This document shows positions 1-38,077 of a stretch of 64,000 nt of DNA, in pieces. The notes below the pieces were generated by a model. The model was not told the DNA's origin and did no database searches. It was given only the letters and a program-made list of their open reading frames with translations. Numbering within the stretch: the first letter of the stretch is position 1; every line of letters starts with the position of its first letter. The stretch spans positions 10,938,411 through 11,002,410 of the forward strand of contig OZ005690.1 in assembly GCA_963930775.1 (NCBI GenBank). The letters are read 5' to 3'. The position numbers and the translations under genes were made by a program. This stretch comes from Cliona cf. orientalis. Taxonomy: Eukaryota > Porifera > Demospongiae > Clionaida > Clionaidae.

Positions 1-44
1 ATTTATTTTCACTCTCTCTCTCGTACACATTCACTGCCACATAG

Positions 45-1359: not shown

Positions 1360-1556
1360 AAAAAAACAACAACACTAACTTTCAAAATTAATTACAATGA
1401 CATTGTGTATAATACCTTGCTTCCACTATTACTGCATGGGTTTTGTTTCATGACATTGTTCAAAATAAAACAGTACTTCCCTATTAAATGCTCTCTTGTT
1501 GGTACTATACTGTGTTCAGTGATATTGATAATTATTGAGTGATGTAAAAGCAGTTT

Positions 1557-1609: not shown

Positions 1610-4600
1610 ATGGCGAGCCCTAGTTCTACCCTACAGGAGCTGGTACCGTTCGAAATCGCCACATCCGACATCCAAGGACTCGAAGACGAAGACACCCGTG
1701 GCTCTGGCTCGTACGGTGCCGTGTACGCAGTGACAGTGAGAGGTACATCCAGAATTGCAAAACGTCTGCACAGTATATTAGTGGGTGCTGACGTAAATCA
1801 GTCCGAGAAGCAGGGAATCAGAGAGAGATTTCTCAATGAATGTCTACTCTTGAGCAAGTTAGATCACCAAAACGTGGTCAAGTTTGTTGGAGTCCACTTC
1901 AGCCCCAAAGATCGCTCAGATGTCACCCTGATCATGGAGCGATTGCACATGGATCTGGAAAAATTTCTGGACCCTGATGATCGTCCTGATATTGATACCT
2001 ACACCAAGCTCTCCATCCTTCTTGATGTAAGCTCAGGTTTACTCTATCTTCACACTCAGCTAGCAAAACCGGTAATTCACCGTGACCTCACTGCGGGGAA
2101 CGTGCTATTGACCGAAGATTTCAAACAAGCTAAAATTGCCGACCTTGGAGTGTCAAAGCTCATAGATCACCATCTACATCGAGCAGTGACTCGCACAGCA
2201 TGTCCAGGTACCCTCGCATACATGCCTCCCGAAGCACTCACTGACAACCCCAAGTACGATACACCGCTGGATGTGTTCTCGTTCGGGCAATTGTCCCTCT
2301 ACGTTGCCCTTCAGCAGTTTCCCCAGGTTGCATTTGAGCTGCCTCCCGATCAATCAATAAGAGCTTATCAGTTAGGGGAGGTGGCAATACTCAAACGAAA
2401 GAAGTGGCTTGATATGCTTCCAGAGGATCACTATTTTCATGATTTGATTCTGTCTTGTCTAAGAGATGACCCAAGTGAGCGTCCAAGCACAGAGAGACTG
2501 AACGTGAAGATGAAGGTGCTCTGTGGATTGGAGCTGGAAGAATTCGAAATTAAGGATGTCATGGGAATCATAGATGGTGAATTGTACAGCTCATATACAG
2601 CCGTCTACAAAGTCATTGCTAGAGGAGCACCTCGAATTGCAAAACGATTGAATAGCATTCTCGATTCTGAGCTTCACAGCGATATCTCCCCTTCTGAAAG
2701 GCAGCGTATCCGAGAGAGATTTCATAGCGAATGTCTGGCTTTGAGCAAGCTAGACCATCCCAATATCCTAAAGTTCGTTGGAGTTCATTTCAACCCTGAA
2801 GATCGATCTGACATGTCCATCATCTTTGAGCACCCACACATGAGCTTGGAGGAATTTCTGAATTCACAAGAATTCCCCGATATTCATCTGAATACCAAGC
2901 TCTCCATACTGTATGATGTAAGCTGTGGATTACTCTATCTTCATGCCCAGCTAGATTCGCCATTCATTCACGGTGAACTGACTGCAGCAAATATATTGAT
3001 CACTGAAGACATGAGGCAAGCAAAAATCGCTGATCTAGGCATATTGAAACTCCGAGACAGCTATGTAAACAAGCAACCCAAAAACATTAGGGTTCTATCT
3101 CATCTTCCTCCAGAAACTTTTCTCGATAATGCAAAACTTGCCACCCCTATTGATATATTTTCATTTGGTCATTTAGCGCTGTATGTAGCACTCCAAAAAT
3201 TTCCTGAGATCTCAGAGAAAGAGGTATTGACAGTGACACGAAAGAAACGTGAAATCGAAATATTGATAAGGAAGAAATGGATCGATGAACTAGAGCAAGA
3301 TCACTACCTTCGAGACCTGATACTGCGATGCCTAAAAGACGAACCGGAGAAGAGACCAACTGCAAGAGAACTGAACAATATCATGAGTGGTCTGAACAAT
3401 GCTATTAACCCTGAAAGGAAGACAAAGGTACACTAAACTTTTGTTCTGACTACATAATATTATCGTATAATGTAGCTAGTTGGCAAAATTGGTTGCCAAA
3501 TTTGGAATTACCAATATATATAGTGTTTGGCATTATCAACATTTTAATTTACCAAAGCCAAACAAGAGTATTTTTGCAGAATAATATTATGATACTTACT
3601 GGTTTAATGGTAGGTATGGCTGACCATCCATTATGCGAGATCATTCAGGCTTAAATGGGACCAATGTTAATCTGTTGAGCTAGGGGATTAAAATTTAAGT
3701 GGGGTTCAACTGTGTATAAAAACTAACTACTATGCTTGTACATGTGCTGATGCTAGTAGTGTTGGTTACCTGCAGTAATTGCAATGTGGTTAACCAACTT
3801 GTTATCCGGACACTTATCAGAACATACCCACTTCCTGCATGTGATGACCATGACATTTCCATGCATTTATGTACACTGTATATACTTATGATGTATTGCA
3901 TTATTTGTATTTCTTCCAATATAGCGTGGCATTGCACTTCAGAACCAGTTCGCTGATCTCTGTCACATCTGTAGAAGTGGACGGCTAGATCTACTCAAAG
4001 ATTTCTTTTACTATAACAAGGAGATCTTAAACTATTCTACATTAAAAGGTTCGACAATATTACACGAAGCTGTTGAAGGTGACCAACCAGATGTGATACA
4101 GCTGTTACTCTTGCACGGTTTCAATCCTGATGTGCAAGCAAAAGGAGGCATAACCCCACTGCATTTGGCCGTTACTAATGGCCAAGTTGACTGTGTCCGT
4201 GCACTGATTGAGAATGGTGCAGACATCTCAGTGCAAGATAATCAAAGACAAGATGCCATAACAAAGGCAGAGCAACGTATACGTAGCAAGAAGCGTAATT
4301 CAGAAGCTGTCATGAAACACCTTCGTAGTAAACGTAAGATACTAGAATTTTATAAGTGGTATAAATATAATCATAATTATAATTATTATTATCCTTTCTC
4401 TAGAAATTATACAGCTTGCTAAGTCAGGGAAACTGGATGAATTAGAAAAACAACTAAATCAGCATCCAAAACCAGCAATATATGACATGGAAGAAGCAAT
4501 ATTAGTGGCAATTACAAATAATAATGATGAGTTGATCCCCCTCTTGGTTGTGGGTGGAGTCAGACGCCTAGACTGTGCTCTTGAGCTTGCAATACAGCTA

Positions 4601-7600
4601 GACAGAATCAATGCAATAGCTATCCTATTACTCTGCAAAGCGGCCATAACTGGCGACACAGCTGCCATTCGCTCACTCCTCTGTGAGCCTCTAGGATCCA
4701 CTAATATCCCCTGGTATGTGCCACAGGTACAAAGGATACTTTCTCATGGTAGCATACAAATGAGGTATCCAATAGCCATTTCCATCCTTGAGAAGAAGTA
4801 TGAAGCAACAAGGGAATTACTGTTGAATATCAATTTTGATATGGGACGCAAGCAGGTCGATTGGAGTAGCCTAAAACTGACGATTCTCCATTCTTCCTGG
4901 ATTTACTCCATTGCTCCGTGGGTAGTGAGTCTGAAGCTTGTCAACAACCATCTGAGGAATCTGCCATCAGAGATATCCAGTGCCACTCAGCTCAGGAGAC
5001 TCGACCTTTCCCGGAATCTTCTTGAGACTGTGACTCCAAATTTATTTTCCCTCCCAAATCTCGAATACATCTCAGTAGGCCACAACAGATTGAAAGAAAT
5101 CCCCGAGACTAGCAATTGGTCTGCGTCCCTCCTCTCTCTTGATCTCTCTGAGAATTTGCTCAGTAGTTTGCCTCAGGGCATACAACACTCATCAATTGAG
5201 ATCCTTAATTTGAGCAAAAATCAATTCACAGTGGTGCCCAAGTGCTTGTGTCGTATTCGCACTCTGACCTCATTGGATCTCAGCTACCTGCCGATATCTT
5301 CCCTCCCAAAGGAAATGGAGCACTTGGATAATCTTGTCAATCTCAATGTCTCAAACACCAAGATCACCAACCTCCCAAATGGAGTGCTTCAAGGGGGGAT
5401 CAGTGGAATATTCAGGGCCCAGGCCCGCTTCAACAAGCCGTGCAACCACGTCAAATTGATGCTTCTCTGTCACTCAGATATCGTTAAAACCGTCATGCTC
5501 TCACGACTCAAACCCCACTTCAATTCCTCCCAGCTGGCACAAAACTATCCCCTTCCTGAGATCGATGTGTTCCAGTGGTCCTTCAAACCTTTCTTCACTC
5601 GAAAGGTCTTTGTCTCCCCAAAGCTGTACTTTCACACATGGCTCATCGGTAGTAACTTCTCCTGCCGATCCATCTTTCCCTGCTTCTTCACACCGAGCGC
5701 CCTTTATGTCATCGTATGGGACAGGACCACCACAGCCGACCTGAGGGAGCAGATCAAGCCGTACATCGATCTCCTCATTCGCTACGTTCCTTCGGCTAAC
5801 ATCTTGATCATAGTAGTCTTGCCGGAGCAGTATGAAGGGTGGACCAGTGAGAGGCAAGCTGAAGGGCTGGTTGGAAGGCTGAACAACTTCTTCTCCAAGC
5901 CTAGCTACCAGTCTCTCTATTACCATGGAGTGCTGATGATGGTGGCAAATCCTAACATCAAGGCAGGGCAAAGTGATCTAAAGCAGCGACTGTACGATGC
6001 GGCTCAGCAAATGATCGTCAATGGCCAACAGATTATTGGTCGCCTAATTCCAGAGACCTACTTCTCTCTGATCCCCGTGGTGGAGAAGGAGCAGCAAACG
6101 TTCAGGTCAAAGTCCAAGCCTGGTGTGCTGGAGGAGAGTACTATATGGATGCTCTTTGACAAGGCCCTTGCTTCTGACCGTTCCAACAAGACTGAGCTTC
6201 CTGATATGGTCGAGTTCCTCAAGGAGGCGGGAATTCTCTTGCACTACGAGGACCCCAACGATCATCTTGATTGGTGCTACTTCACACGACCGATTTGGCT
6301 CTACAACACGTTGCTACGAGTTGTACGTCATGCCCTGGAGCACCGTAGTCATCTCTTCCTCACTCGTGGCGAGCTCTCCTCTCTTGCAAACATCAGCTGG
6401 AACAGAGATATCGCTCAAGCTCTCATTCGATTGATGATTCGCTACGCCATTGTCCTACCAATTCGCCATGATCAGTACCTCATTACTTGCCTTCTTCCCC
6501 ACTCTCAGCCTCCAGCTGATGTCCTCTACTGTGGCGTGCTAAGGCGACAGTTTGCTCCAAAGGTCCTTAGTATACCAATTGATCTCTGGAGCTGGTTATT
6601 GTGCTCAATAATTTCCAACCTGCCTTGGATCACAGACATGAGCAAGCTCAAGAAGGTGTCAAAGAGTAAGGAGAAGGAGAAGGGACATGACACAGACGAT
6701 GAAATGGATGAGCATGGCCTGGCTACTACAACGGCCAAGAGACTGCTCCCTGAGCATTTTGATCAAGCACACAGTGACCCAAATTTGCTCTCCAGGGTCA
6801 GTAAGATGGTGCAAGAAGGTAGTCAAAAATCAAAGGAGCCTCCCACCCTAAAAACAGCCAATCAGGCTGAGAGAGAGGAAAGTACGAATTCTCAAGAAAA
6901 GATAAAAAGAGAAAATGGAGGCAAAGATGATAAAGAGGATGATCAGGTTAGAATGGAGGACATTTCGGTTGATGTACAGCCAGCGAGTTTGCCAGAGGAG
7001 AGCAAGAGTGTGTTGGACCGTCACCCTCGAGGTTTCACTCGGCTGCACCTGACTCAGTCTCTGCACACTGAGGACTCTTCTTGCGACAACACACCAGCGG
7101 ATAGTCCCAACGGTGATGGCTCCAAGCCTTCTTCTCCTAAAAAGACATCAGGTCAGCTGCCACTGAATTTACCGGATCAGTCCGAGATAGAGAAGGAGGA
7201 GGTAGCTTCGGCTGAAGTTGAAAAGGAATCGGTGAAAGAGGCAGAAAAATCAAGTGAAAAACCAAAGGAGAGCAATCCTAGTGAGACACCACCATCAGGG
7301 CAACCTGGTGCAACTGCAACTGCCACTGAAAGCAGAATCCAGAAAGGAATCAAAGAAGATTCACCAATTTCACCAACAGCAGGGGATCAGAGGCTGGCGT
7401 CCAGAATTTTGCGAATGACTTCACCCGTGAAACACATCAGTCGGGATAGATCGGGCAGTCCTGCATCTTCTGACTCCACCCACACCCCACCCACTGGCAG
7501 CACACCAGTCAATGGACAGCTGCAAGCTAGCATTCCTCAGCATTCGTCAGAGGGGTCTAGGCTACACAGAAATGTCAGTGCTCCACCCAAGAAGAGGGAT

Positions 7601-9946
7601 CTATCCAGACGTTCACTGTACGCCAAACCAGCTGCCATCGACAAGGGCGTGGAGGTATGGGAGTCGGGCATGATTTACAACCACAAAGGTATAAAGTTTA
7701 GCATCTTTCCTTGCATTTCAGAAGTATCCACAGTGGAGGAGAGAGGAATCGAAATTTGCTGCACTCGGGATAACTATGGCTACGCCATAATGGCCCGGCT
7801 GTGTTGGCTGGTGCAGAGAAACCTTGAGGAACGATTTCCCAACCTCTTTTCAACGGAAACACCTCTTCAGAAACACGAGCTCACGCAGATAGCCATTTGC
7901 CCCACCTGCCTCAAAAGAAACGAGAGAAACCCTTCCTGCTTCTTAATCGAAGCATGCGTTCACGCCCTACAGACCAAGGGTGAACACAATTGTAGGTGCC
8001 ACCCTGAGGCTATTCTGCTACGAGACCTCGTCCCTGACTATCTCCTGCTTGATTTCCCCTCTCACCTCCGTCTCACAAAGACAATGTTTGAGTACAATGA
8101 AGCCAAGCCGCTTCACCGAGGCAGACAGACAGTTCTCCACAATGGTCACTTCAACGGGAAGGAGGTAGCCATTAAGATGTATTATCAACTGGATAGTAGA
8201 TCCATCAATCTCCCTCTCTCTTGTGTGAGAAGAGAAACAGACATGCTTAGCTCACTCAATCATCCGAATATCGTCAAGACCTTTGGCTTTTGCCTCGATC
8301 CTCCCTGTGTGCTCGTGGAGAAGGCTTCTCTCGGAAATCTCTACCAGAAGCTAATGGACACTGAGGTGAAGATCAACAGAACTGTTCGATTTCACATCGC
8401 CTGTCAAGTCGCCTCCGCCCTCAGCTATCTCCATCAACGTGATATCATCTATCGTACGCTCAAAGCAAGCTCCATTCTGCTATGGTCTCTGGATTTCAAG
8501 TGCGAGGCCAGCGTTAAATTAGCCGGTTTTGAGCGAGCCGCCTACCAGTCACCAAGTGGGCTACTCAGCAAGACAACGTTCTCCTCTTATCCCGCACCAG
8601 AGATGCTTAAGTACTCCTTCAGAGAAGAATACACTGAGAAAGTGGATATCTACTCTTTTGGTATATTCCTCTATGAGCTAGTGACAAGACGGCAGCCCTA
8701 CGGAGGAACAAATGATGGTGCTCACTCTCAAAAACCAAAGCTATCTGGTGTGGTAACCACTAGCTACAGCACCATGGTGAAGTTGATGCAGGAGTGCTGG
8801 CAAGATGAATCCATGGCCCGACCTTCTGCCAACGATCGCCTTCTGCAGCTGTCCCAGCCCTCCCTCCAGTGCCACCTTGCTTCTCAGGTGCTCCGTGATT
8901 TTATCTCTGTGCGTGGATGCTGTTTTGTGCCCTCAGTCGGACAGATCTGGGTCTATGGAGAGTACAGTAAGATTAGGTATGATGGAGAGATCTCCGAAGG
9001 AACACAAGTATTCATTCTCAATGCTGAAAACTTGACTGTGCAGGGAAGCTTGGAGCTGAGAGAGAGAGCTAGTACCATATTTACTGTTGACAATAAGGTA
9101 TGGATTGGAATGACAGAGCTGTGTGTCTATGCCTATGACACCACAACCTTCCGATTCACCGATCGATTCCATCTCGACGATTCAGCCACAGTCGTCACTG
9201 ACAACGACTGCTATGTGTTCGTTGGTCAGGCCAATGGTCAACTCAAATGCTACTCCAAGCTGCAATTACAGCAAGGAGACTGCCAACCGGTCGTTGTAGA
9301 GATAGGAGACAAAGCCATCATCACCATGGTCACAGTTGGTGATATCATCTGCTTGGGTTGCAGCAATGAACTAGTGATACTGAGCGCCGAAGATGAAGTT
9401 ACAATAGAGCGAAGAGCACAGGTGTGTGAGTCCTCTGACCAGGTGATTGCCATGACTGTCTCTCATAACACAAACATATTGTGGTGTATTAGCCGTACCT
9501 CTCATAGGATCACCAGTTGGGATCTCCATACAACAGAGCTAAATCAGAGTGTTGACTTGTCTGAGCAACTCAAGTGGATTTGTTGTGAGCTGAACTATGA
9601 CCCAATGTTCTTAAGGATAGTATCCATTGAGTGCATTAGTGACACTCTGTGGGTGGAGCTTTCATGTGGAGTGATCATGATTTTATCAGACACAGAGCAA
9701 CCAGAAAAGATTATTCACCTTAAAGCACACAAGCAAGCTACTGGCTGTCTGTTGAAGATACCTCAGAGTAATGATCTCCACCAACAGCATGATTACCCCA
9801 TGATTCTGAGTGGCGGATTCGGAGAAGTGTCCTCTCTCTCAAGTGAGGCATCGGAACAGAATGGAGTTGTCATGCTGTGGCAAGCCTTTACAGCAAATGA
9901 ATTTAGTACCATATCCAAAAGGCATTCCAATTATGTAATGCACTGA
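1610..9946 (+). CDS. Copy A: tandem kinase-ANK-LRR-Roc-COR-kinase-WD40 (LRRK-like Roco fusion)
   Basis: Exons 1610-3427, 3925-4333 and 4404-9946 join at GT-AG sites (phases 0 and 1) into 2,589 aa. Kinase 1 (about 20-300) has GSGSYG 31-36, Lys51, HRD 157-159, Asn164 and DLG 178-180, so it looks active. Kinase 2 (about 312-595) has no glycine loop and HGE for HRD, so it is a pseudokinase. Ankyrin repeats follow (about 645-715), then about six LRRs (915-1070), a Roc-like domain (about 1090-1285) with the P-loop reduced to HSDIVKT, COR (about 1290-1490), a Ser/Glu/Pro-rich linker (about 1490-1815) and a Cys/His-containing C-terminal COR part. The LRRK-position kinase (about 1965-2225) keeps VAIK but has YRTLK for YRDLK and GFE for DFG/DYG. 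A WD40-like propeller ends the protein. The upstream TTG-initiated extension is rejected because all paralogues start at ATGGCGAG. Probably a cytosolic signalling scaffold; ligand unknown. Confidence 0.85.
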
Positions 9947-13764: not shown

Positions 13765-13800
<36 letters not shown>

Positions 13801-20881: not shown

Positions 20882-23800
20882 ATGGCGAGTCCTAGCTCTA
20901 CCCTACAGGAGCTAATACCGTTCGAAATCACCTCTTTCGACATCCAAGGACTTGAAGACGAAGATACCCGTGGCTCTGGCTCGTACGGTGCCGTATATGC
21001 AGTCACAGTGAAAGGTACATCCAGAATTGCAAAACGTCTGCACAGTATACTGGTGGGTGCTGACGTGAATCAGTCCGAGAAGCAGGGAATCAGAGAGAGA
21101 TTTCTCAATGAATGTCTACTTTTGAGCAAGCTGGATCACCAAAATGTGGTCAAATTTGTTGGAGTCCACTTCAGCCCCGAAGATCACTCAGACGTCACCC
21201 TGATCATGGAGCGATTGCACATGGACCTGGATAAATTTCTGGACCCTGATCAACACCCTGATATTGATACCTACACCAAGCTGTCCATCCTTCTTGATAT
21301 AAGCTCAGGCTTACTCTATCTTCACACTCAGCTAGCAAAACCGATAATTCACCGTGACCTCACTGCAGGGAACGTGCTATTGACTGAGGATTTCAAACGA
21401 GCTAAAATTGCCGACCTCGGAGTATCAAAGCTCATAGATCACCACCTACATCGAGCGGTGACTCGTACAGCATGTCCTGGTACCCTCGCGTACATGCCTC
21501 CTGAAGCACTCACTGATAAGCCCAAGTACGATACACCGCTGGATGTGTTCTCATTTGGGCAATTGTCCCTCTACGTTGGCCTTCAGCAGTTTCCCCAGGT
21601 GGCATTTGAGCTGCCTCCTGATCAGTTAATAAGAGCTTTACAGCTAGGGGAGATAGCAATACTCAAACGAAAGAAGTGGCTCGATATGCTTCCAGAGGAC
21701 CACTGTCTCCGTGATTTGATTCTCTCTTGTCTAAGGGACGACCCAAGTGAGCGTCCAAGCACAGAGAGACTGAATGTGAAGATGAAGGTACTCTGTGGAT
21801 TGGAGCTGGAAGAATTTGAAATTAAGGATGTCCTGGGAATCATAGATGGTGAATTGTACGGCTCGTACACAGCCGTCTACAAAGTCATTGCTAGAGGAGC
21901 ACCTCGAATTGCAAAACGATTGAATAGCATTCTCAATTCTGAGCTTCACAGCGATATCTCCCCTTCTGAAAGGCAGCGTATCCGAGAGAGATTTCATAGC
22001 GAATGTCTGACTTTGAGCAAGCTAGACCATCCCAATATCCTAAAGTTCATTGGAGTTCATTTCAACCCTGAAGATCGATCTGACATGTCCATCATCTTTG
22101 AGCACCCACACATGAGCTTGGAGGAATTTCTGAATTCACAAGAATTCCCCGATATTCATCTGAATACCAAGCTCTCCATACTGTATGATGTAAGCTGTGG
22201 ATTACTCTATCTTCATGCCCAGCTAGATACGCCATTCATTCACGGTGAACTGACTGCAGCAAATGTATTGATCACTGAAGACATGAGGCAAGCAAAAATC
22301 GCTGATCTAGGCATATTGAAACTCCAAGACAGCTATGTAAACAAGCAACCCAAAAACATTAGGGTTGTATCTTATCTTCCTCCAGAAACTATTCTCGATA
22401 ATGCAAAACTTTCCACCCCTATTGATATATTTTCATTTGGTCATTTAGCGCTGTATGTATCACTCCAAAAATTTCCTGAGATCTCAGAGAAAGAGGTATT
22501 GACACTGACACGAAAGAAACGTGAAATCGAAATATTGAGAAGGAAGAAATGGATCGATGAACTAGAGCAAGAGCACTGCCTTCGAGACCTGATACTGCGA
22601 TGCCTAAAAGACGAACCGGAGAAGAGACCAACTGCAAGAGAACTGAACAATATCATGAGTGCTCTGAACAATGCTATTAACCCTGAAAGGAAGACAAAGG
22701 TACACTAAACTTTTGTTCTGACTACATAATATTATCATATAATGTAGCTAGTTGGCAAAATTGGTTGCCAAATTTGGAATTATCAATAGTGTTTGGCATT
22801 TAATTTACCAAAGCCAAACAAGAGTATTTTTGCAGAATAATATTATGATACTTACTGGTTTAATGGTAGGTATGGCTGACCATCCATTATGCGAGATCAT
22901 TCAGGCTTAAATGGGACCAATGTTAATCTGTTGAGGGGATTAAAGTTTAAGTGGGGTTCAACTGTGTATAAAAACTAACTACTATGCTTGTACATGTGCT
23001 GATGCTAGTAGTGTTGGTTACCTGCAGTAATTGCAATGTGGTTAACCAACTTGTTATCCAGACACTTATCAGAACATACCCACTTCCTGCATGTGATGAC
23101 ATTTCCATTTATGTACACTGTATATACTTATGATGTATTGCATTATTTGTATTTCTTCCAATATAGCGTGGCATTGCACTTCAGAACCAGTTCGCTGATC
23201 TCTGTCACATCTGTAGAAGTGGACGGCTAGATCTACTCAAAGATTTCTTATACTACAACAAGGAGATCTTAAACTATTCTACATTAAAAGGTTCGACAAT
23301 ATTACACGAAGCTGTTGAAGGTAACCAACCAGATGTGATACAGCTGTTACTCTTGCACGGTTTCAATCCTGATGTGCAAGCAAAAGGAGGCATAACCCCA
23401 CTGCATTTGGCCGTTACTAATGGCCAAGTTGACTGTGTCCGTGCACTGATTGAGAATGGTGCAGACATCTCAGTGCAAGATAATCAAAGACAAGATGCCA
23501 TAACAAAGGCAGAGCAACGTATACGTAGCAAGAAGCGTGATTCAGAAGCTGTCATGAAGTACCTTCGTAGTAAACGTAAGATAGAATTTCATAAAATCAA
23601 AAAAATGATATGAAATAATATAATAATGTAATTATCCTTTCTCTAGAAATTATAGGGCTGGCTGAGGTAGGAAAACTGAATGAATTAGAAAAACGACTAC
23701 ATCAGCATCCAAAACCAGAAATATGTGACATGGAAGAAGCAATGATAGTGGCAATTACAAATAATAATGATGAGTTGATCCCCCTCTTGGTTGTGGGTGG

Positions 23801-26800
23801 AGTCAGACGCCTAGACTGTGCTCTTGAGCTTGCAATACAGCTAGATAGAATCAATGCAATAGCAATCCTATTACTCTGCAAAGCGGTCGTAACTGGCGAC
23901 ACAGCTGCCATCCGCTCACTCCTCTGTGAGCCTCTAGGATCCACTAATATCCCCTGGTATGTGCCACAGGTACAAAGGATACTTTCTCATGGTAGCATAC
24001 AAATGAGGTATCCAATAGCCATTTCCATCCTTGAGAAGAAGTATGAAGCAACAAGGGAATTACTGTTGAATATCAATTTTGATATGGGACGCAAGCAGGT
24101 CGATTGGAGTAGCCTAAAACTGACGATTCTCCATTCTTCCTGGATTTACTCCATTGCTCCGTGGGTAGTGAGTCTGAAGCTTGTCAACAACCATCTAAGG
24201 AAGCTGCCATCAGAGATATCCAGTGCCACTCAGCTCAGGAGACTCGACCTTTCCCGGAATCTTCTTGAGACTGTGACTCCAAATTTATTTTCCCTCCCAA
24301 ATCTCGAATACCTCTCAGTAGGCCACAACAGATTGAAAGAAATCCCCGAGACTAGCAATTGGTCTGCGTCCCTCCTCTCTCTTGATCTCTCTGAGAATTT
24401 GCTCAGTAGTTTGCCTCAGGGCATACAACACTCATCAATTGAGATCCTTAATTTGAGCAAAAATCAATTCACAGTGGTGCCCAAGTGCTTGTGTCGTATT
24501 CGCACTCTGACCTCATTGGATCTCAGCTACCTGCCGATATCTTCCCTCCCAAAGGAAATGGAGCACTTGGATAATCTTGTCAATCTCAATGTCTCAAACA
24601 CCAAGATCACCAACCTCCCAAATGGAGGAGTGCTTCAAGGGGGGATCAGTGGAATATTCAGGGCCCAGGCCCGCTTCAACAAGCCGTGCAACCACGTCAA
24701 ATTGATGCTTCTCTGCCACTCAGATATCGTTAAAACCGTCATGCTCTCACGACTCAAACCCCACTTCAATTCCTCCCAGCTGGCACAAAACTCTCCCCTT
24801 CCTGAGATCGATGTGTTCCAGTGGTCCTTCAAACCTCTCTTCACTCGAAAGGTCTTTGTCTCCCCAAAGCTGTACTTTCACACATGGCTCATCGGTAGTA
24901 ACTTCTCCTGCCGATCCATCTTTCCCTGCTTCTTCACACCGAGCGCCCTTTATGTCATCGTATGGGACAGGACCACCACAGCCGACCTGAGGGAGCAGAT
25001 CAAGCCGTACATCGATCTCCTCATTCGCTACATTCCTTCGGCTAACATCTTGATCATAGCCGTCTTGCCGGAGCAGTATGAAGGGTGGACTAGTGAGAGG
25101 CAAGCTGAAGGGCTGGCTGGAAGGCTGAACAACTTCTTCTCCAAGCCTAGCTACCAGTCTCTCTATTACCATGGAGTGCTGATGATGGTGGCGAATCCTA
25201 ACATCAAGGCAGGGCAAAGTGATCTAAAGCAGCGACTGTACGATGCGGCTCAGCAAATGATCGTCAATGGCCAACAGATTGTTGGTCGCCTAATTCCAGA
25301 GACCTACTTCTCTCTGATCCCCGTGGTGGAGAAGGAGCAGCAAACGTTCAGGTCAAAGTCCAAGCCTGGTGTGCTGGAGGAGAGTACTATATGGATGCTC
25401 TTTGACAAGGCCCTTGCTTCTGACCCTTCCAACAAGACTGAGCTTCCTGATATGGTCGAGTTCCTCAAGGAGGCGGGGCTTCTCTTGCACTATGAGGACC
25501 CCAACGATCGGCTGGACCGCTGCTACTTCACGCGACCAATTTGGCTCTACTACACATTGCTACGAGTTGTACGTCATGCCCTGGAGCACCGTAGTCGTCT
25601 CTTCCTCACTCATGGTGAGCTCTGCTCGGTTGCAAACATCAGATGGAGCAGAGATATCGCTCAAGCTCTCATTCGATTGATGATTCGCTACGCCATTGTC
25701 CTACCAATTCGCCATGATCAGTACCTCATTACTTGCCTTCTTCCCCACTCTCAGCCTCCAGCTGATGTCCTCTACTGTGGCGTGCTAAGGCGACAGTTTG
25801 CTCCAAAGGTCCATAGTATACCAATCGATCTCTGGAGCAGGTTATTGTGCTCAATAATCTCCAACCTGCCTCGGATCACAGATGTGAGCAAGCTTATGGA
25901 GTCAAAGAGTAAGGGGAAGGAGAATGGATATGACACAGACGATGAAACAGATGAGCATGGCATGGCTACTACAACAGCCAAGAGACAGCTGCCTGAGTAT
26001 TTTGATCGAGCACACAGTGACCCAAATTTGCTCTCCAGGGTCAGTAAAATGGTGCAAGAAGATAATCAAAAATCAAAGGAGCCTCCCAACCTAAAAACAT
26101 CCAAAGAGGCTGAGAGAGAGGAAAGTACGAATTCTCAAGAAAAGATAAACGGAGAAAATGAAGGCAAAGATGATCAAGAGGATAATCAGATTAGAATTGA
26201 GGACATTTCGGTTGATGTACAGCCAGCGAGTTTGCCAGAGGAGAGCAAGAGTGCGTTGGACCGTCACCCTCGAGGTTTCACTCGGCTGCATCTGACTCAG
26301 TCTCTGCACACTGAGGACTCTTCTTGCGACAACACACCAGCGGATAGTCCCAATGGTAATGGCTCCAAGCCTTCTTCTCCTAAGAAGACACCAGGTCAGC
26401 TGCCACTGAATTTACCGTACCAGTCCGAGACAGAGAAGGAGGAGGTAGCTTCAGCTGAAGTTGAAAAGGAATCGGTGAAAGAGGGAGAGAAATCAAATGA
26501 AGAGCCAAAGGAGAGCAAACCTATTGAGACACCACCATCAGGGCAACCTGGTGCAGCTACTGAAAGCAAAGGAATCAAAGAAGATTCACCAATTTCACCA
26601 ACAGCAGGGGATCTGAGGCTGGCATCCAGAATTTTGCGAATGACTTCACCCGTGAAACACTTCACTCGGGATAGATCAGGCAGTCCTGCATCTTCTTACT
26701 CAACCCACACCCCACCCACTGGTAGCACACCAGTCAATGGACAGCTGCAAGCTAGCATTCCTCGGCATTTGTCAGAGGGGTCTAGGCTACACAGAAATGT

Positions 26801-29180
26801 CAGTGCTCCATCCAAGAAGAGAGATCCATCCAGACGTTCACTGTACGCCAAACCAGCTGCCATTGATGAGGGTGTGGAGATATGGGACTCAGGCATGATC
26901 TACAACCACAAAGGTATAAAGTTCAGCATCTTTCCTTGCAGTTCAGAAGTCTCCACGGTGGAGGAGAGAGGAATCGAAATCTGCTGCACTCGGGATAACT
27001 GTGGCTACACCATCATGGCTCGACTGTGTTGGCTGGTGCAGAGAAACCTCGAGGAACGATTTCCCAACCTCTTTTCAACGGAAATACCTCTTCAGAAACA
27101 CAAGCTCACGCAGATAGCTATTTGCCCCACCTGCCTCGAAAGAAACGAAAGAAACCCTTCCTGCTTCTTAATCGAAGCATGCGTTCACGCCCTACAGATC
27201 AAGGGTGAACACAATTGCAGGTACCACCCTGAGGCTATTCCACTACGAGACCTCGTCCCTGACTATCTCCTGCTCGATTTCCCATCTCACCTCCGTCTCA
27301 CAAAGACAATGTTCGAGTACAACGAAGCCAAGCCGCATCACCGCGGCAGACAGACAGTTCTCCACAATGGTCACTTCAACGGAAAGGAGGTAGCCATCAA
27401 GATGTATTACCAAATGGATAGTAGGTCTATTGCTCTCCCTCTTTCTTACGTGAGAAGAGAAACAGACATGCTGAGCTCACTCAATCATCCGAATATCGTC
27501 AAGACCTTTGGTTTTTGTCTCGATCCTCCCTGCGTGCTCATGGAGAAACCTCCTCTGGGAAATCTCTACCAGACACTGAAGGACACTGAGGTGAAGATCA
27601 GCAGAACAGTTCGATTTCATATTGCCAATCAAGTTGCCTCAGCCCTTAGCTATCTCCATCGACGTGATATTATCTACCGTACGCTCAAAGCAAGCTCCAT
27701 TCTGCTCTGGTCTTTGGATTTCTATCGTGGTGCCAGCATTAAGTTAGCCAATTTTGAGCGAGCTGCCTACCAGTCACCGAGTGGACTGATGAGCAAGCCA
27801 ATGTTCTCCTCTTACCCTGCGCCAGAGATGCTTAGGTACTCCTTCAGAGAAGAGTACACAGAGAAGGTGGATATCTACTCCTTTGGCATCCTCCTCTATG
27901 AACTAGTGACAAGATGGCAGCCCTATGGAGGAATAAGCAATGGTACTCACTTTCAGAAACCAAAGCTATCTGGTGTGACCACTAGCTTCAGCACCGTAGT
28001 GAAATTGATGGAGAAGTGTTGTCAAGAAGAGTCATTGTCCCGTCCTTCAGCCGACGGTCTCTTTCTGCAGCTGTCCCAGCCCTCCTTCCAGTGCCACCTT
28101 GCTTCTCAGGTGCTTCGTGATTGTGTCTCTGTACGTGGATGCTGTTTTGTACCCTCAGTTGGACAGATCTGGGTCTATGGAGAGTACAATAAGATTAGCC
28201 TGTGTGGTGATGGACAGATCTCTGAAGGAACACAAGTATTCATTCTCAATGCTGAGAACTTGACCGTGCAGGGAAGCTTGGAGCTGAGAGAGAGAGCTAC
28301 GGCCATGTTCACTGTCGACAACAAGGTATGGATTGGAATGACAGAGTTGTGTGTCCATGCCTATGACACCACAACATTCCGATTCACCGATCGATTCTAT
28401 CTTGATGATTCAGCCACGACCATCGCTGACACTGACTGGTATGTGTTTGTTGGTCAGGCCAACGGACAACTCAAGTGCTACTCCAAGCTACAATTGCAGA
28501 GGGGAGACTGCCAACCGGTGGTCATACAGATAGGAGATGAAGCCATTATTGCTATGGTTACGGTTGGTGACATCACCTGGATTGGTTGTGGCAATGAGCT
28601 AGTGATACTGAGCGCTGAAGATGAAGTTACAATAGAGCAAAGAGCAGACGTGTGTGAGTCCTCTGACCAGGTGGTTGCCATGACTATCTCTCACAACACA
28701 AACACAATATGGTGTATTACCCGTTGCTCTCATAGAATCACCAGTTGGAATATCCACACAACAGAGCTAAAGCAGAGTGTTGACATATCTGAGCACCTCA
28801 AGTGGATTTCCTGTGAGCTAAACTATGACCCCACGTTCTTGAGGATGGTATCAATTGAGTGTGTTAGTGACACTCTGTGGGTGGAGCTTTCATGTGGAGT
28901 GATCATGATTTTATCAGTCACAGAGCACCTAGAAAAGATTACCCACTTCAAAGCACACAAGCAAGCTACTGGCTGTCTGTTGAAGATACCTCATATTAAT
29001 GATCTCCACCAACATCATGGATTCCCCACGATTCTGAGTGGCGGATTTGGAGAAGTGTCCTCTCTCTCAAGCATGGCATCGGAACAGAATGGAGTTGTCA
29101 TGCTGTGGCAGGCCTGTACAGCAAATGAATTTAGCACCATTTCAAAAAGGCATGCCGATTACGTACATCTATTACACTGA
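20882..29180 (+). CDS. Copy B: LRRK-like Roco fusion with N-terminal tandem kinase
   Basis: Exons 20882-22699, 23167-23575 and 23647-29180 give 2,586 aa in one frame. It is the closest relative of copy A: intron 1 is also nearly identical, and exon 2 is 409 nt in both. Kinase 1 has GSGSYG, IAK, HRD and DLG. Kinase 2 has HGE. The Roc-like domain has HSDIVKT. The linker is about 335 residues with DRSGSPASS-type serines. The LRRK-position kinase keeps VAIK but reads IIYRTLKASSILLW, and NFE replaces DFG/DYG. The WD40-like C terminus starts near VRGCCFVPSVGQIW. No frameshift was seen. Predicted cytosolic; function inferred from architecture only. Confidence 0.85.
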
Positions 29181-30429: not shown

Positions 30430-33400
30430 ATGGCGAGGCCTAGCTCTACCCTACAGGAGCTTATACCGTTCGAAATAAACTCTTCCGACATCCAAGGACT
30501 CGAAGACGAAGACACCCGTGGTTGGCTCGTACGGTGCCGTGTATGCAGTCACAGTGAGAGGTACGTCTAGGATAGCAAAACGTCTGCACAGTATACTGGT
30601 GGGTGCTGAGGTGAATCAGTCCGACAAGCAGGGAATCAGAGAGAGATTTCTCAATGAATGTCTACTCTTGAGCAAGTTAGATCACCAAAATGTGGTCAAA
30701 TTTGTTGGAGTTCACTTCAGCCCCGAAGATCGCTCAGATGTCACCCTGATCATGGAGCGATTGGACATGGACCTGGATAAATTCTTGGACCCTGATCAAC
30801 GCCCCAATATTGATACCTACACCAAGCTCTCCATCCTTCTTGACGTAAGCTCAGGGTTACTCCATCTTCACACTCAGCTAGCAAAACCGATAATTCATCG
30901 TGATCTCACTGCGGGGAATGTACTACTGACTGAGGATTTCAAACGAGCAAAAATTGCCGACCTCGGAGTATCGAAGCTCATAGATCACCACCTACATCGA
31001 GCGGCAACTCGTACAGCGTGTCCTGGTACCCTCGCATACATGCCACCCGAAGCACTCACTGACAAGCCCAAGTACGATACACCGCTGGATGTGTTCTCGT
31101 TCGGGCAATTGTCCCTCTACGTTGCCCTTCAGCAGTTTCCCCGTGTGTATGAGCTGCCTCCGGATCAATTAATAATAGCTTGTCAGTTAGGGGAGGTAGC
31201 AATACACAAACGAAAGAAGTGGCTCGATATGCTTCCAGAGGATCACTGTCTTCGTGATTTGATTCTGTCTTGTCTAAGAGACGACCCAAGTGAGCGTCCT
31301 AGCACAGAGAGACTAAACGTGAAGATGAAGGTGCTCTGTGGATTGGAGCTGGAAGGATTCGAAATTAAGGATGTCATGGGAATCATAGATGGTGAATTGT
31401 ACGGCTCGTACACAGCCGTCTACAAAGTCATTGCTAGAGGAGCTCCTCGAATTGCAAAACGATTGAATAGCATTTTCGATTCTGAACTTCTCAGCGATAT
31501 CTCCCCTTCTGAAAGACAGCATATCCGAGAGAGATTTCATAGTGAATGTCTGACTTTGAGCAAGCTAGACCATCCCAATGTCCTAAAGTTTGTTGGAGTT
31601 CATTTCAACCCTGAAGATCGATCTGACATGTCCATCATCTTTGAGCACCTACACATAAGCTTGGAGGAACTTCTGAATTCACAAGAATTCCCCGATATTC
31701 ATCTCAACACCAAGCTCTCCATACTATTTGACATAAGCTGTGGATTACTCTATCTCCATACCCAGCTGGAATCACCATTAACTCACGGTGAGCTAACTGC
31801 AGAAAATGTATTGATCACAGAAGACATGAGGCAAGCAAAAATCGCTGATCTAGGCGTACTGAAACTCCGGGACAGCTATATAAACAAGGAGCCTGAAAAC
31901 ATTAGGGCTCTACCTTATCTTCCTCAAGAAGCTTTTTCTGATAATCAAGAACGTGCCACCCCTATCGATGTATTTTCATTTGGTCATTTAGCACTGTATG
32001 TAGCACTTCAACAATTTCCTGAGATCTCAGAGGAAGAGGTGTTGACAGTGACACGAAAGAAACGTGAAATCGAAATATTGAGAAGGAAGAAATGGATCAA
32101 TAAACTAGAGCAAGTTCACTGCCTTCGAGACCTGATACTGCAATGCCTAAAAGATGAGCCAGAGAAAAGACCAACTGCAAGAGAACTGAACAATATCATG
32201 AGTGCTCTGAACAATGCTATTAACCCTGAAAGGAAGACGAAGGTACAATCATGATGGGATTTGCCATATATATATTATAATAATATAATGCTCAGCATAA
32301 TAAAGCCTCTAGCATTAGAACTAGACAGACAACATAATACTATAGATTCTTGGGCAGGAAACATGGAAATAGTAAGCACAATGGTGCCTTCACAGTAATA
32401 ATAATAATTATTATGCTATTTGTAGTTTAACAATTCGTTATCCAAATATTATTATGTGCAATCAAAACTGATGAGCCCACATCTTTTACATGGTGATTAT
32501 GAGTTTATTAATATGACCATATTATTTGTCCATGGATGCTTATACATGAAGCATGGTGCTACTGTAGTATGTTATTAGCTTATCTGCTATCCATCTAAAT
32601 TCCCTTACACACATGTAGCGTGACATTGCACTTCAGAGCCAGTTTGCTGATCTCTGCCGAGTATGCAGAAATGGAGAACTGGATCTACTCAAAGAGTTCC
32701 TGTATTACAAAAAGGAGATCTTAACCTACCAGCCTCCACCCAGTTATACCTCAGTATTGCATGAAGCTGTTGAAGCTGATCAACCAGATGTGATACAGCT
32801 GCTAATCTTACATGGTTTCAATCCTGATGTACGAGCAAAAGGAGGCTTGACCCCACTGCATTTAGCCGTCACCAAAGCAAAAGTAAGCTGTGTCCGTGCA
32901 CTGGTTGAAAATGGTGCAGATATGAGCATGAGAGATAAGCAGGGACAAGATGCTATTGCCAAAGCAGAGCTACGTAGCAAAAAGAGAGAGAGTATTTTAA
33001 AACTTCTTCGTAGCAAAGGTATGACATTGCACAGTATTAGATTATTCAATTTTGATACCCAAAAGTAATTAAATTATAATTTCTCTCTCCAGAATTGGTG
33101 ATGTTTGCGGAGAAGGGAGCTGTGAAAGAGCTCGAAAAGAGATTGAAGCAGCAGACTCCTAAGCCTGAAATGAGGGATATTGAAGAGGCTATGCTAAGAG
33201 CCATTTGTAGCGGCAATGATGGATGTGTTCCCCTCTTGATCTTGGCAGGTGCTCGACGCCTCGACTGTGCCCTCTACCTCGCCATCCAGCTGGAGAGAAT
33301 CAAGGCTATAGCTATCCTCTTACTCTGTAAAGCTATCATCAATGGCGATGCAGCTACCATTCGCTCACTCCTCTCAGAGCCCCCGGAGACAGCCCATGTC

Positions 33401-36400
33401 CCATGGTACATGCCTAAAGTGCACAAGGTCCTTTCTCAGGGCTACGTCAAGATGAGCTACCCGATAGCCATCTCCATCTTTGAGAAGAAGTACGAAGCAA
33501 CAAAGGAGCTTCTACTGAGGATAGACCTCGACATGGGACGGAAGCAGGTCAATTGGAGCAAGCTGAAGCTGACTATGTTTCACTCTTCTTGGATGTACTC
33601 CATCGCTCCATGGGTGGTAAGTCTGAAGCTCTTCAAGAACCATCTGAGGATGCTGCCATCGGAGATGTTTAGTGCCATACAGCTCAGGAGACTCGATCTG
33701 TCCCAGAATCTTCTTGAGACTGTGTCCCCTGATCTATTTGCCCTCCCAAACCTTGAGTATCTCTCTCTCGGTCACAATAGATTGAAGGAAATCCCCGAGA
33801 CTAGCAATTGGTCCTCCTCCCTCCTCTCTCTCGATCTCTCTGAGAATTTGCTCAGCACTTTGCCTCAGGGCATACAGCACTCGTCGATTGAAATTCTCAA
33901 TTTGAGCAGAAATCAGTTCACGTTGGTACCAAAGTGCCTGTGTCGTGTTCGCACTCTGACCTCACTGGATCTCAGCTACATGCCGATATCTTACCTCCCG
34001 AAAGAGATGGAGCACTTGGATCATCTTGTCAATCTCAACGTCTCAAATGCCAACATCACCGACCTTACAAACGGAGGGGGAGTACTTCGAGGGGGGACCA
34101 GGGGAATAGTCAGGGCCCGGGCCCGCTCCGACAAGCCATGCAACCACGTCAAATTGGTGCTTCTTTTTCACACTGATGTCGTCAAAACTGTCATGCTCTC
34201 ACGACTCAAGCCTCATTTCAACTCCTCCAAGCTGGTGCCAAACTTTCCTCTTCCTGAGATCGACGTGTTCCAGTGGTCCTTCAAACCTCTCTTCACTCGA
34301 AAGGTCTTTGTCTCCCCGAAGCTCTACTTTCACACATGGCTCATCGGTAGTAACTACTCCTGCCGATCCATCTTTCCCTGCTTCTTCACACTGAGTGCCC
34401 TTTATGTCATCGTATGGGACAGGACCACCACAGCCGACTGGAGGGAGCAGATCAAGCCGTACATCGATCTCCTCATTCGCTACGTTACCTCGGCTAACAT
34501 CTTGATCATAGCCGTCCTGCCGGAGCAGCATGATGGGTGGACTAGTGAGAAGCAAGCAGAAGGGTTGGCTGAAAGGATAAGCAGGTTCTTCTCGAAGCCT
34601 AATTACCAGTCTCTCTATTACCATGGAGTCCTGATGGTGGTGGCAAATCCTAATTTCAAAGAGGGGCAGAGTGATCTAAAGCAGCGACTGTATGACACTG
34701 CTCAGCAAATGATCGTTAATGGCCAACAGATTATTGGTCGCCAGATTCCAGAGACCTACTTCTCTCTCATTCCCGTGCTAGAGAAGGAACAGCAGACATT
34801 CAGGTCAAAGTCCAAGCCCGGAGTGCTTGAGGAGAGCACTGTATGGATGCTCTTTGACAAGGCTCTTGCCTCTGACCCTCCCGACAAGATGGAGCTTCCT
34901 GTTATGGTCGACTTCCTCAAAGAGGTGGGGCTTCTCTTGCACTACAAGGATCCCAACGATCATCTGGACCACTTATACTTCACACGACCAATTTGGCTCT
35001 ACAACACGTTGCTACGAGTTGTACGTCATGCCCTGGAGCACCGTAGTCGTCTCTTCCTCACTCATGGCGAACTCTGCTCACTTATAAATGTCAGCTGGAG
35101 CAAAGATATAGCTCAAGCTCTCATTCGATTGATGATTCGCTACACCATTGTCTTACCAATTCGCCATGATCAGTACCTCATTACTTGCCTTCTTCCCCAC
35201 TCTCCGCCTCCAACTGATGTCCTCTACTGTGGCGTGCTAAGGCGACAGTTTGCTCCGAAGGTCCATAGTATACCAATCGATCTCTGGAGCAGGTTATTGT
35301 GCTTAATTATCTCCAACCTTCCTCGGATCATTGACGAGAGCAATCTTAAGAAGGAGCAATCTCTGAACTCTGAATACTCTTCTACACCAGATCAGTTCAA
35401 GACAGAGAAGGAGAAAGTAGCTTCAGCTGAGTTTGAGAAAGAGTCGGTTAAAATGGGGGAGAAATCCAATGAAGAGTCAAAGGAGAGCAAACGTGAAGAG
35501 ATACAACTACCAGAGCAATCTGATGCAACTCTAGTTGCCACTGAAAGCAGAATCCAGAAAGAAGATTCACCAATTTTACCAACAGAAGCGGATCAGAAGC
35601 TGGCGTCCAGAATTTTGCAAAAGACTTCACCCATGAAAGACTTAATCAATCAGGATAGATCAGGCAGTCCTGCCTCTTCTGATTCCACCCACAGCCCACC
35701 CAATGAAAGTGCATCGGTCAAGAAGAGTGATCCATCCAGACTCTTGGTGTACGCTGAACCAGCTGCCATTGACAACGGTGTGAAGATATGGGACTCAGGC
35801 ATGATCTACAACCACAAAGGTATAACGTTCAGCATCTTTTCTTGCATTTCAGAAGTGTCCACGGTGGAGGAGAGAGGAATCGAAATCTGCTGCACTCGGG
35901 ATAACTATGGCTACACCATCATGGCTCGACTGTGTTGGCTGGTACAGAGAAACCTCGAGGAACGATTTCCCAACCTCTTTTCAACGGAAACACCTCTTCA
36001 GAAACACGAGCTCACACAGTTAGCCATTTGCCCCACCTGCCTCGATAGAAAAGTGAGAAACCCTTCCTGCTTCTTAATCGAAGCATGCGTTCACACCCTA
36101 CAGATCAAGGATGAACACAATTGTAGGTACCACCCTGAGGCTATTCCACTACGAGACCTCGTCCCTGACTACCTCCTGCTCAATTTTCCCCCTCATCTTC
36201 GCCTCACAAAATCAATGTTTGAGTACAATGAAGCCAAGCCACTTCACCGTGGCAGACAGACAGTTCTCCATAATGGTCATTTAAATGGGAAGGAGGTAGC
36301 CATCAAGATTTATCACCAATTTGATAGTGGATCCATCACTCTCCCTCTTTCTTGGGTGAGAAGAGAAACAGACATGCTGTGTTCATTAAATCATCCTAAT

Positions 36401-38077
36401 ATCATCAAGACCTTTGGCTTTTGTCTCGATCCACCTTGTGTGCTCGTGGAGAAGGCTCCTCTGGGAAATCTCTACCAGACACTGATGGACACTGAGGTGA
36501 AGATCAACAGAATAGTTCGATTTCACATTTCTAATCAAGTTGCTTCGGCCCTTAGTTACCTCCATCGACACGATATCATCTATCGTACGCTCAAATCAAG
36601 CTCCATTTTGCTATGGTCTTTGAATTTCAAATGTGATGCCAGCATTAAGTTAGCCCATTTTGAGCGAGCTGCCTACCGGTCACCAAGTGGGCTACTCAGC
36701 AAGATAAGGTTCTCCTCTTATCCTGCCCCAGAGATGGTGAGGTATTCCTTCAGAGAAGAGTACACAGAGAAAGTGGATATCTACTCCTTTGGTATATTCC
36801 TCTATGAGCTAGTGACAAGATGGCAGCCCTATGGAGTAACAAACGATGGTGCTCACTCTCAGAAACCAATGCTATCCAGGGTGGTAACCACTAGCTACAG
36901 TACCGTAGTGAAATTTATGGAGGAATGTTGGCAGGAAGAGTACCTGTCCCGCCCCTCAGCTGATGACCTCCTGCTGCAGCTGTCCCAGCCCTCCTTCCAG
37001 TGCCACCTTGCCTCTCAGGTGCTCCGTGATTGTGTCTCTGTGCGTGGATGCTGTTTTGTGCCCTCAGTTGGACAGATCTGGATCTATGGAGACTACAGTA
37101 AGATTAGGTATGATGGAGAGATCTCCGAAGGAACACAAGTATTCATTCTCAATGCTGAAAACCTGACTGTACAGGGAAGCTTGGAGCTGAGAGAGAGAGC
37201 TAGGACCATATTTACTGTCGACAACAAGGTATGGATTGGAATGACAGAGCTGTGTGTCCATGTCTATGACATCACAACATTCCGATTCACCGATCGATTC
37301 CATCTCGACTATTCAGCCACGATCATTACCGATAACGACTGCTACGTGTTCGTTGGTCAGGCTAATGGTCAACTCAAGTGCTACTCCAAGCTACAACTGC
37401 AGCGAGGAGACTGCCAACCAGTGGTCATACAGATAGGAGATAAAGCCATTATCGCTATAGTAACGAATGGTGACATCATCTGGATTGGTTGTGGCAATGA
37501 ACTAGTGATACTGAGCACCAAAGATGAAATGACAATAGAGCAAAGAACAGAGGTGTGTGAGTCATCTGACTGGGTGTATGCCATGACTGTCTCTCATAAC
37601 ACTTACACAGTGTGGTGTACTACCCATAGCTCTCATAAAATCACCAGTTGGGATCTCCATACAACAGGGCTAAAGCAGAGCGTTGACTTGTCTGAGCACC
37701 TCGAGTTGATTTGTTGTGAGCTGAATTATGACCCTAGCTTCGTTAGGATGGTGTCCATTGAATGTGTTAGTGATACACTGTGGGTGGGGCTTTCGTGTGG
37801 AGTGATCATGATTTTATCAGACGCAGAGCAACCAGAAAAACTTATCCACTTTAAAGCACACAAGCAAGCTACCAAATGCCTGTTGAAGATACCGCAGAGT
37901 GACGTTTACCACCAACATCATGATTTCCCCGTGATCCTGAGTGGTGGATTTGGAGAAGTATCCTCTCTCTCAAGCAAGGCATCGGAACAGAATGGAGTTG
38001 TCATGCTGTGGCAAGCCTTTACAGCGAATGAATTCAGCACCATTGCCAAAAGGCATGCCAATTATATATTACAATGA
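30430..38077 (+). CDS. Copy C: LRRK-like Roco fusion, frameshifted in the first kinase
   Basis: Exons 30430-32242, 32619-33018 and 33093-38077 correspond to about 2,400 codons. A 2-bp deletion near 30520-30524, inside the codons for the glycine loop (GGCTCTGGCTCG in paralogues, GGTTGGCTCG here), breaks the frame after residue 30. From there on the frame is open. Kinase 1 otherwise has IAK, HRD and DLG. Kinase 2 has HGE. Exon 2 is 400 nt and resembles copy D. The Roc-like motif reads HTDVVKT. The linker is only about 155 residues. The LRRK-position kinase reads IIYRTLKSSSILLW and HFE. Either a recent pseudogene, a gene using a later start, or a sequence error. Confidence 0.75.

Follow-up and report, generated by a model that had tools for sequence, protein, structure and literature searches.

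Four copies of a gene predicted to place a kinase and a pseudokinase in front of a degenerate LRRK-type Roco protein are found in the demosponge Cliona cf. orientalis. They lie in a stretch of 64,000 nucleotides (nt), hereafter the window, which corresponds to 10.94–11.00 Mb of contig 2 (OZ005690.1, positions 10,938,411 to 11,002,410) in the 217-Mb genome. Copies A, B, and C are on the plus strand and copy D on the minus strand, with exons rebuilt from the sequence (table 1). LRRK2 is the Parkinson's-disease kinase, and the window proteins are relatives of it with extra kinase domains in front. Taken as a whole, the explanation that we favor, and regard as reasonably likely, is that each copy is one gene encoding a degenerate LRRK scaffold that carries a transplanted kinase–pseudokinase pair.

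Both intron junctions are GT–AG in the four copies, in phase 0 and then in phase 1. If exon 1 is not spliced, its frame stops beyond the donor after two (A and B), three (C), or six (D) codons. This in-frame passage from exon 1 to the ankyrin-Roco part, with an early stop in intron 1, had been proposed in the initial annotation, and it is the same by sequence in 4/4 copies. The frames of A, B, and D are open, giving predicted spliced proteins of 2589, 2586, and 2317 amino acids (aa), respectively. The domain search called for by the same annotation confirmed the order. Pfam recognizes two kinase stretches in exon 1 (A and D), ankyrin repeats in exon 2 (copy A), and leucine-rich repeats (LRR), a kinase, and the Beta-prop_LRRK2 domain above cut-off in exon 3 (A and D). 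The annotated LRRK-type Roco protein with a front kinase–pseudokinase pair, and three kinase folds in all, is thus recovered. Two relatives of these genes lie outside the window. The first, a diverged locus, is separated from the window by 6.6 Mb of the same contig, and its exon 3 is 54–70% identical by piece. The second is a copy on contig 16 (L025 and L026, about 207–213 kb) encoding ankyrin repeats and a degenerate Roco without front kinase, with an exon 3 protein 87% identical to that of A. Exon 3 of this copy is a mosaic of similarity to the window copies, a pattern that suggests exchange between contigs.

The layout of the C-terminal part is that of LRRK1 and LRRK2. The best PDB matches of exon 3 are LRRK1 chains followed by LRRK2, and the C-terminal propeller scores 54.6 and 65 bits with Beta-prop_LRRK2, for a cut-off of 26.9. 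In A and D, Pfam places the LRR before Roc and the kinase directly behind COR. The Pfam scores of COR-A (32.5 and 29 bits in A and D), of COR-B (15.5 bits, in copy A only), and of Roc (14.7 and 13.8 bits in A and D, for a cut-off of 27) are all below cut-off. A Roc followed by a COR is nevertheless present by homology to LRRK1, the region from LRR through Roc to COR-A aligning to a LRRK1 chain with 106 bits. The COR-B loop, rich in Ser, Pro, Glu, and Lys, is long and variable, with 340, 333, 151, and 79 aa in A, B, C, and D, respectively.

The nucleotide-binding and catalytic motifs of this part have been lost. Where the LRRK1 chain has the P-loop GPPRQGKS, A and B have CHSDIVKT, C has FHTDVVKT, and D has CHMKVYKH. 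The GxxxxGK[ST] signature is missing in 6/6 degenerate loci (A–D, the contig-16 copy, and the diverged locus, the last being read at the P-loop, HRD, and DFG positions). The G4 motif, THLD in paralogues, is missing in the 5/5 loci read, and the switch II region is also lost in Roc of the window copies. In the C-terminal kinase (kinase 3), HRD is replaced by YRT and DFG by GFE, NFE, or HFE; a glycine-rich loop can no longer be recognized. The aspartates of both motifs are replaced in the six degenerate loci, and the VAIK lysine is retained in the five that were aligned. As a control, GKT and THLD are retained in 10/10 LRRK1-like paralogues examined. From these motifs, Roc and kinase 3 are most likely inactive, and the proteins belong with LRRK through their ancestry and layout rather than through any predicted activity. 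The LRRK1/LRRK2-type assignment of the initial annotation consequently stands for layout and descent, but not for the nucleotide-binding motifs of Roc and the catalytic aspartates of kinase 3.

One result weighs against the explanation that we favor. The native kinase of the LRRK1-like paralogues, read by eye, retains the HRD-type aspartate in 7/10 and the DFG-type aspartate in 9/10. As 3/10 paralogues with an intact Roc have also lost a catalytic aspartate, the window group does not stand out by this loss. In L032, L035, and L037, YRS or YRN replaces HRD in the C-terminal kinase although Roc is intact. The native C-terminal kinase therefore seems to be decaying in part of the LRRK1-like group too.

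The two front kinases form, in one exon and one chain, a kinase followed by a pseudokinase. Kinase 1 (K1) retains the glycine-rich loop, the lysine, HRD, DLG in place of DFG, and PPE. In kinase 2 (K2), HGE (A, B, and C) or HSE (D) is found where HRD is expected. K1 of A is 53–56% identical to K2 of A and D. Given what we take to be the meaning of these motifs, K2 looks like a pseudokinase, and K1 looks like the only catalytically complete kinase of these proteins. The front kinase would then probably be the sole working enzyme of the protein, with an activity of K1 predicted from its residues.

We estimated the ratio of nonsynonymous to synonymous substitution rates (dN/dS) by NG86 for K1, K2, exon 2, and exon 3. 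The values for K1 are among the lowest seen, 0.07–0.20 in all pairs (0.07–0.11 among A, B, and D, and 0.17–0.20 with the broken copy C). For K2 they are 0.17–0.23 in three pairs and 0.36–0.40 in two, and for exon 2 they are 0.24–0.28 for A/B versus C/D, which shows this exon to be coding, and 0.50 for the close pair C/D. Exon 3 gives 0.21–0.26 between independent copies, within which Roc gives 0.14–0.23 and kinase 3 0.12–0.20. The COR-B loop gives 0.56 and 0.58 in the two pairs for which an estimate was possible (A/C and A/B). The A/B ratios in near-identical tracts (up to 1.7, in K2) rest on almost no synonymous change. Judged by these ratios, the folded domains are under purifying selection. 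Since dN/dS is low in Roc and kinase 3 despite their motif losses, these two folds appear to be selected for something beyond the lost activities. Copies A and B (1610–9946 and 20882–29180) are near-identical from K2 through intron 1 into exon 3, with a synonymous divergence (dS) of 0.01–0.03, and have diverged in K1 (dS 0.26) and from COR-B onward (0.2–0.4). This pattern looks like a gene-conversion tract.

A decaying array of pseudogenes without function would account for the several breaks in the frame of the diverged locus and for the state of copy C, which lacks 2 nt where K1 begins (about 30520) and has its frame broken there. This point weighs against four intact genes: the initial annotation held for all four copies as regards the shared junctions, not as regards an open frame. 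However, A, B, and D are open over 2317–2589 codons, and independent copies compared in their folded domains give a dN/dS well under 1. We therefore regard a functionless array as most improbable.

Whether the kinase pair and the Roco part belong to one gene can be judged at the junctions. For this comparison, the 99% identity of A and B in intron 1 makes them a single independent copy. Among A/B, C, and D, identity is 92–98% over the last 60 nt of exon 1, 25–48% over the first 60 nt of intron 1, 32–42% over its last 60 nt, and 77–95% over the first 60 nt of exon 2. The homology is exon-sharp, lost at the GT and regained at the AG. The codon just before exon 2 is TAG in 4/4 window copies, and its first in-frame methionine is residue 130 (A and B) or 102 (C and D), at or beyond the end of the detected repeats. 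Exon 2 of A–D therefore needs an upstream exon. Small leader exons inside intron 1 were considered and rejected: some can be drawn for each copy, none being common beyond A/B. At least five full or nearly full kinase–pseudokinase exons are present genome-wide (72 of 959 candidates scored), and 5/5 lie just upstream of such a Roco. The fifth, that of the diverged locus, is followed at the same place by a phase-0 GT–AG junction with a 161-nt intron.

Several observations weigh against a single gene per copy. In the diverged locus, where frames are broken, the intron has an in-frame ATG seven codons ahead of exon 2, and the start of exon 2 is unlike that of the window copies (25–37% identity, ungapped). 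Intron 1 contains AATAAA in C and D and ATTAAA in A and B, and a 3′ end there is possible. Finally, the kinase-less copy on contig 16 stands alone with its own methionine. The hexamers and the kinase-less copy, together with the stops two to six codons beyond the donor, would be expected if two adjacent genes, a kinase–pseudokinase gene ending a few codons past exon 1 and a separate ankyrin-Roco gene, had been duplicated as one block. We consider this very unlikely in view of the TAG and the late methionines of exon 2, the drop and return of homology at GT and AG, the constant association of kinase–pseudokinase exons with a Roco, and the single open frame shared by kinase and ankyrin in related loci. 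The poly(A)-like hexamers were discarded as a criterion, since AATAAA or ATTAAA occur in intron 1 of A–D and in the 3′ flanks of A–C alike; in copy D, neither is found in the 600 nt past the stop. The same stops and hexamers might instead reflect one gene with two products, a long spliced protein and a short kinase–pseudokinase produced through retention of intron 1 or early polyadenylation. This would be compatible with the explanation that we favor, but the intronic tails differ (VH in A and B, VQS in C, and VCMYAC in D), so the end of a short form is not conserved, and we find it unlikely. Altogether, these lines of evidence argue strongly that each copy is one gene, presumably spliced in vivo as drawn.

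Front kinases also occur on other LRRK-type loci of this genome. In 6/10 LRRK1-like loci examined, the ankyrin repeats are preceded, at a distance of some 240–290 nt, by a kinase. Five of these loci (L032, L035, L036, L037, and L040) have a single open frame of 514–566 codons that runs through kinase, coiled coil, and ankyrin; in the sixth, L031, the frame is broken. These loci carry a single front kinase and not a pair, with the coiled coil and the ankyrin repeats in the same exon. In L032, the one locus among them submitted to Pfam, the front exon gives a kinase and ankyrin, and the main exon gives Roc (76.8 bits), COR, kinase, and propeller. As in the window copies, a phase-1 donor lies by sequence behind the ankyrin repeats in the five loci read, and the exon that follows is related to its window counterpart. 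With the coiled coil–ankyrin part of L032 as query, we found nine full-length places, all upstream of LRRK-type main exons. Its 512-residue front exon matched eight places over 1–512 in stop-free frames of 514–568 codons, and L031 over 92–511 with one stop. At least 13 LRRK1-like loci are present (25 of 1031 candidates scored), 9 of which have a kinase–coiled coil–ankyrin exon upstream, open in 8/9. L033, L038, and the contig-16 copy have an ankyrin exon with its own methionine, and the sequence before it, over about 5, 3, and 9 kb, respectively, showed no front kinase; L034 and L039 have neither a front kinase nor an ankyrin exon match. By our count, a front kinase exon is present in 14/19 of the LRRK-type loci found. 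A front kinase is thus not confined to the window genes, since nine other LRRK-type loci have one, there as a single domain and not as a pair. Upstream of the L036 front exon, a second front-kinase-like piece (L036:9018–9500), incomplete at the end of the stretch, is 66% identical to that of L032.

At least 75 further places (84 of 1641 candidates scored) resemble L032 in the kinase and coiled coil without matching its ankyrin part. Their frames, mostly of 700–800 codons, are often in arrays and occur on contigs 1, 4, 5, 15, 16, 19, and others. Among the places listed, the closest are at 943–982 kb of contig 16, some next to the LRRK array and some inside it. Because of this position, a neighboring kinase–coiled coil gene is a likely source of the front kinase of the LRRK1-like group.

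The kinases of the two groups have different relatives. In a midpoint-rooted tree of 38 kinase domains, for which a long-branch warning was given and in which the split between the two groups is starred, the five LRRK1-like front kinases form one clade and K1 and K2 fall in another. K1 and K2 nest, with support of 100/100, among kinases encoded by short open frames (L047–L052, 312–372 codons), which we take to be of TKL type. K2 diverged from K1 before the diverged locus branched off. Because the front kinases of the two groups form separate clades, they were probably captured twice by LRRK-type proteins. Alternatively, a single ancestral LRRK with a front kinase could have given rise to both groups, the window lineage later exchanging its kinase. 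What both groups have in common, a front kinase just ahead of the ankyrin repeats and a phase-1 donor behind these repeats, would fit such a replacement. However, the front kinases are not sisters, those of the LRRK1-like group match the large kinase–coiled coil family together with their coiled coil, an intron between kinase and ankyrin exists in the window group only, and LRRK-type loci with their own methionine and without front kinase occur in both groups. We hold a replacement to be not very likely. Exon 1 of copy A had 20 pattern matches among prokaryote genome contigs and 6 among viral contigs, none of them related, as expected for an animal gene. The genome itself also looks like that of an animal by its fibrillar-collagen domain, which gave partial matches here and no match in any of 14 named control genomes.

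Other kinases related to this module were observed in or near the window. A 1100-codon open frame (14808–18110, plus strand) encodes two K1-type kinases and the stub of a third one's start, as well as a probable coiled coil and another, more distant kinase; it represents another, intron-free fusion of the same kinase module. At 11339–12851 (plus strand), a kinase with a long likely coiled coil groups with a locus at 10.85 Mb of contig 2 (99/97). A kinase-like stretch about 30% identical to K1 (L029:49–639) lies about 7.4 kb before the window.

We propose the following scheme for the origin and action of these proteins. In a lineage of LRRK-type Rocos, the GTPase would have lost its nucleotide-binding residues and the kinase its catalytic ones, both folds being retained as a scaffold. 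Exon capture, before or after this loss, would have brought in a kinase related to the short kinase frames of the same genome, which then duplicated, its second copy turning into a pseudokinase. In the present proteins, a ligand or partner may attach to the ankyrin, LRR, and propeller surfaces. The dead kinase and Roc-COR could dimerize or move, acting as a nucleotide-independent switch that releases or clusters K1, with K2 as allosteric partner. The ankyrin repeats, directly behind the kinase pair, would be well placed to restrain K1, and partner binding might free it without GTP. The COR-B loop may be a substrate of K1. Precedents for such control are described in the literature: in LRRK1, the ankyrin repeats and the COR-B loop keep the kinase inactive (PMC10643122), and in DAPK1, Roc regulates a kinase placed in front (PMC6337361, PMC6320773). 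The regulatory scheme in its details is tentative, and we would give it somewhat less than even weight. Slightly better founded, though still short of an even chance, is the broader proposal that LRRK-type Rocos gained front kinases at least twice in one genome and that, in one lineage where both native enzymes are dead, a GTP-free scaffold controls the transplanted pair.

These proteins share features with several known systems. They resemble LRRK1 and LRRK2 (Roco group 2) in their ankyrin-LRR-Roc-COR-kinase-propeller order, their PDB matches, and the LRRK2 propeller model, and differ from them by the front kinase–pseudokinase, the lost Roc motifs, a kinase 3 without the HRD and DFG aspartates, and a COR-B loop of up to about 340 aa. 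The front-kinase LRRK loci of the same genome also have a kinase before the ankyrin-LRR-Roc-COR-kinase-propeller series, but theirs is single, is followed by a coiled coil in the ankyrin exon, and belongs to a separate clade, and their P-loop and THLD are intact. DAPK1 (Roco group 3), which is not known to have a C-terminal kinase or propeller, likewise has a kinase ahead of ankyrin repeats and Roc-COR. Unlike DAPK1, the window copies have LRR, no death domain appears in their Pfam results, and K1 nests with other kinases of the same genome. According to the available descriptions, DAPK1 is a calmodulin-dependent kinase with a death domain and no LRR (PMC6337361, PMC6320773), and one review calls its group the only Rocos with a kinase before Roc-COR (PMC6337361). 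A very long COR-B insert before the conserved W-x-x-G is also reported for the cnidarian LRRK4s, reaching 200 or more residues in most of them (Reimer et al. 2023, PMC10643122). The portion of that description compared here mentions no front kinase, and neither sponge nor Porifera appears as a word in the text of the paper. The plant tandem kinase–pseudokinase proteins (WTK1/Yr15) have a kinase then a pseudokinase in one chain but no Roco scaffold in the description consulted, and the resemblance is one of layout only (PMC6170490). Rocos with a kinase in front have been recorded before: a 2024 study mentions N-terminal kinases in the Rocos of certain organisms, along with about forty animal layouts (PMC11378527). 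Among literature titles and abstract openings, in a search mostly outside subscription journals that does not imply absence from print, we found no LRRK with a front kinase or kinase–pseudokinase.

Other features of the window are not part of the four genes. Upstream of copy A, a gene (1–1360, plus strand) has an Arg/Ser-rich tail that recurs, as seen by eye, fused behind a kelch-like frame at 13030 (13030–13947, plus strand), and tandem duplication seems to have carried part of a neighboring gene along. Two related frames of 473 and 496 codons (50400–51821 and 55223–56713, minus strand), with a multi-pass membrane look by eye, adjoin immunoglobulin-like frames at 57846–63368. No Rfam match was obtained within the window at gathering scores.

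Table 1. Exons and domains of the four gene copies, in window coordinates.
Feature	Position	Strand	Basis
Copy A exon 1: kinase 1 and putative pseudokinase 2	1610..3427	+	Two Pfam kinase stretches, motifs, phase-0 donor
Copy A kinase 1, best Pfam stretch	about 1700-2503	+	HRD and DLG present
Copy A putative pseudokinase 2, Pfam stretch	about 2573-3394	+	HGE
Copy A intron 1, GT-AG, 497 nt	3428..3924	+	Sequence, junction comparison
Copy A exon 2: ankyrin repeats	3925..4333	+	Pfam; TAG directly upstream
Copy A intron 2, phase 1, 70 nt	4334..4403	+	Sequence
Copy A exon 3: LRR, degenerate Roc, COR-A, long COR-B loop, COR-B, degenerate kinase 3, LRRK2-type beta-propeller	4404..9946	+	Pfam; PDB matches LRRK1, LRRK2
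Copy A degenerate Roc	5453..5812	+	P-loop, switch II, G4 motifs lost
Copy A COR-B loop, Ser/Pro/Glu/Lys-rich, about 340 aa	6635..7654	+	Sequence; dN/dS 0.56 (A/C), 0.58 (A/B)
Copy A kinase 3, predicted inactive	8120..8833	+	Pfam, motif reading (HRD to YRT, DFG to GFE)
Copy B exon 1: kinase 1 and putative pseudokinase 2	20882..22699	+	Sequence
Copy B exon 2: ankyrin	23167..23575	+	Sequence
Copy B exon 3: degenerate Roco	23647..29180	+	Sequence, motifs
Copy C exon 1, frame broken near 30520 at kinase 1 start	30430..32242	+	Sequence
Copy C exon 2: ankyrin	32619..33018	+	Sequence
Copy C exon 3: degenerate Roco	33093..38077	+	Sequence, motifs
Copy D exon 1: kinase 1 and putative pseudokinase 2 (HSE)	45033..46850	-	Pfam, motifs
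Copy D exon 2: ankyrin	44232..44631	-	Sequence
Copy D exon 3: degenerate Roco	39436..44171	-	Pfam, motifs

The tandem copies of the array and the exchange of sequence between them are as expected of a fast-evolving signaling or immune family, the immune reading being a guess. Repeated capture of front kinases would widen the known range of animal Roco layouts. How the scaffold controls the kinase, and whether GTP is needed, is a central open question on LRRK2. A lineage in which the scaffold is selected, the GTP-binding and catalytic residues are lost, and another kinase stands at the opposite end would constitute a natural experiment on this question. If the scaffold does control K1, its mechanical role would be separable from its enzymes.

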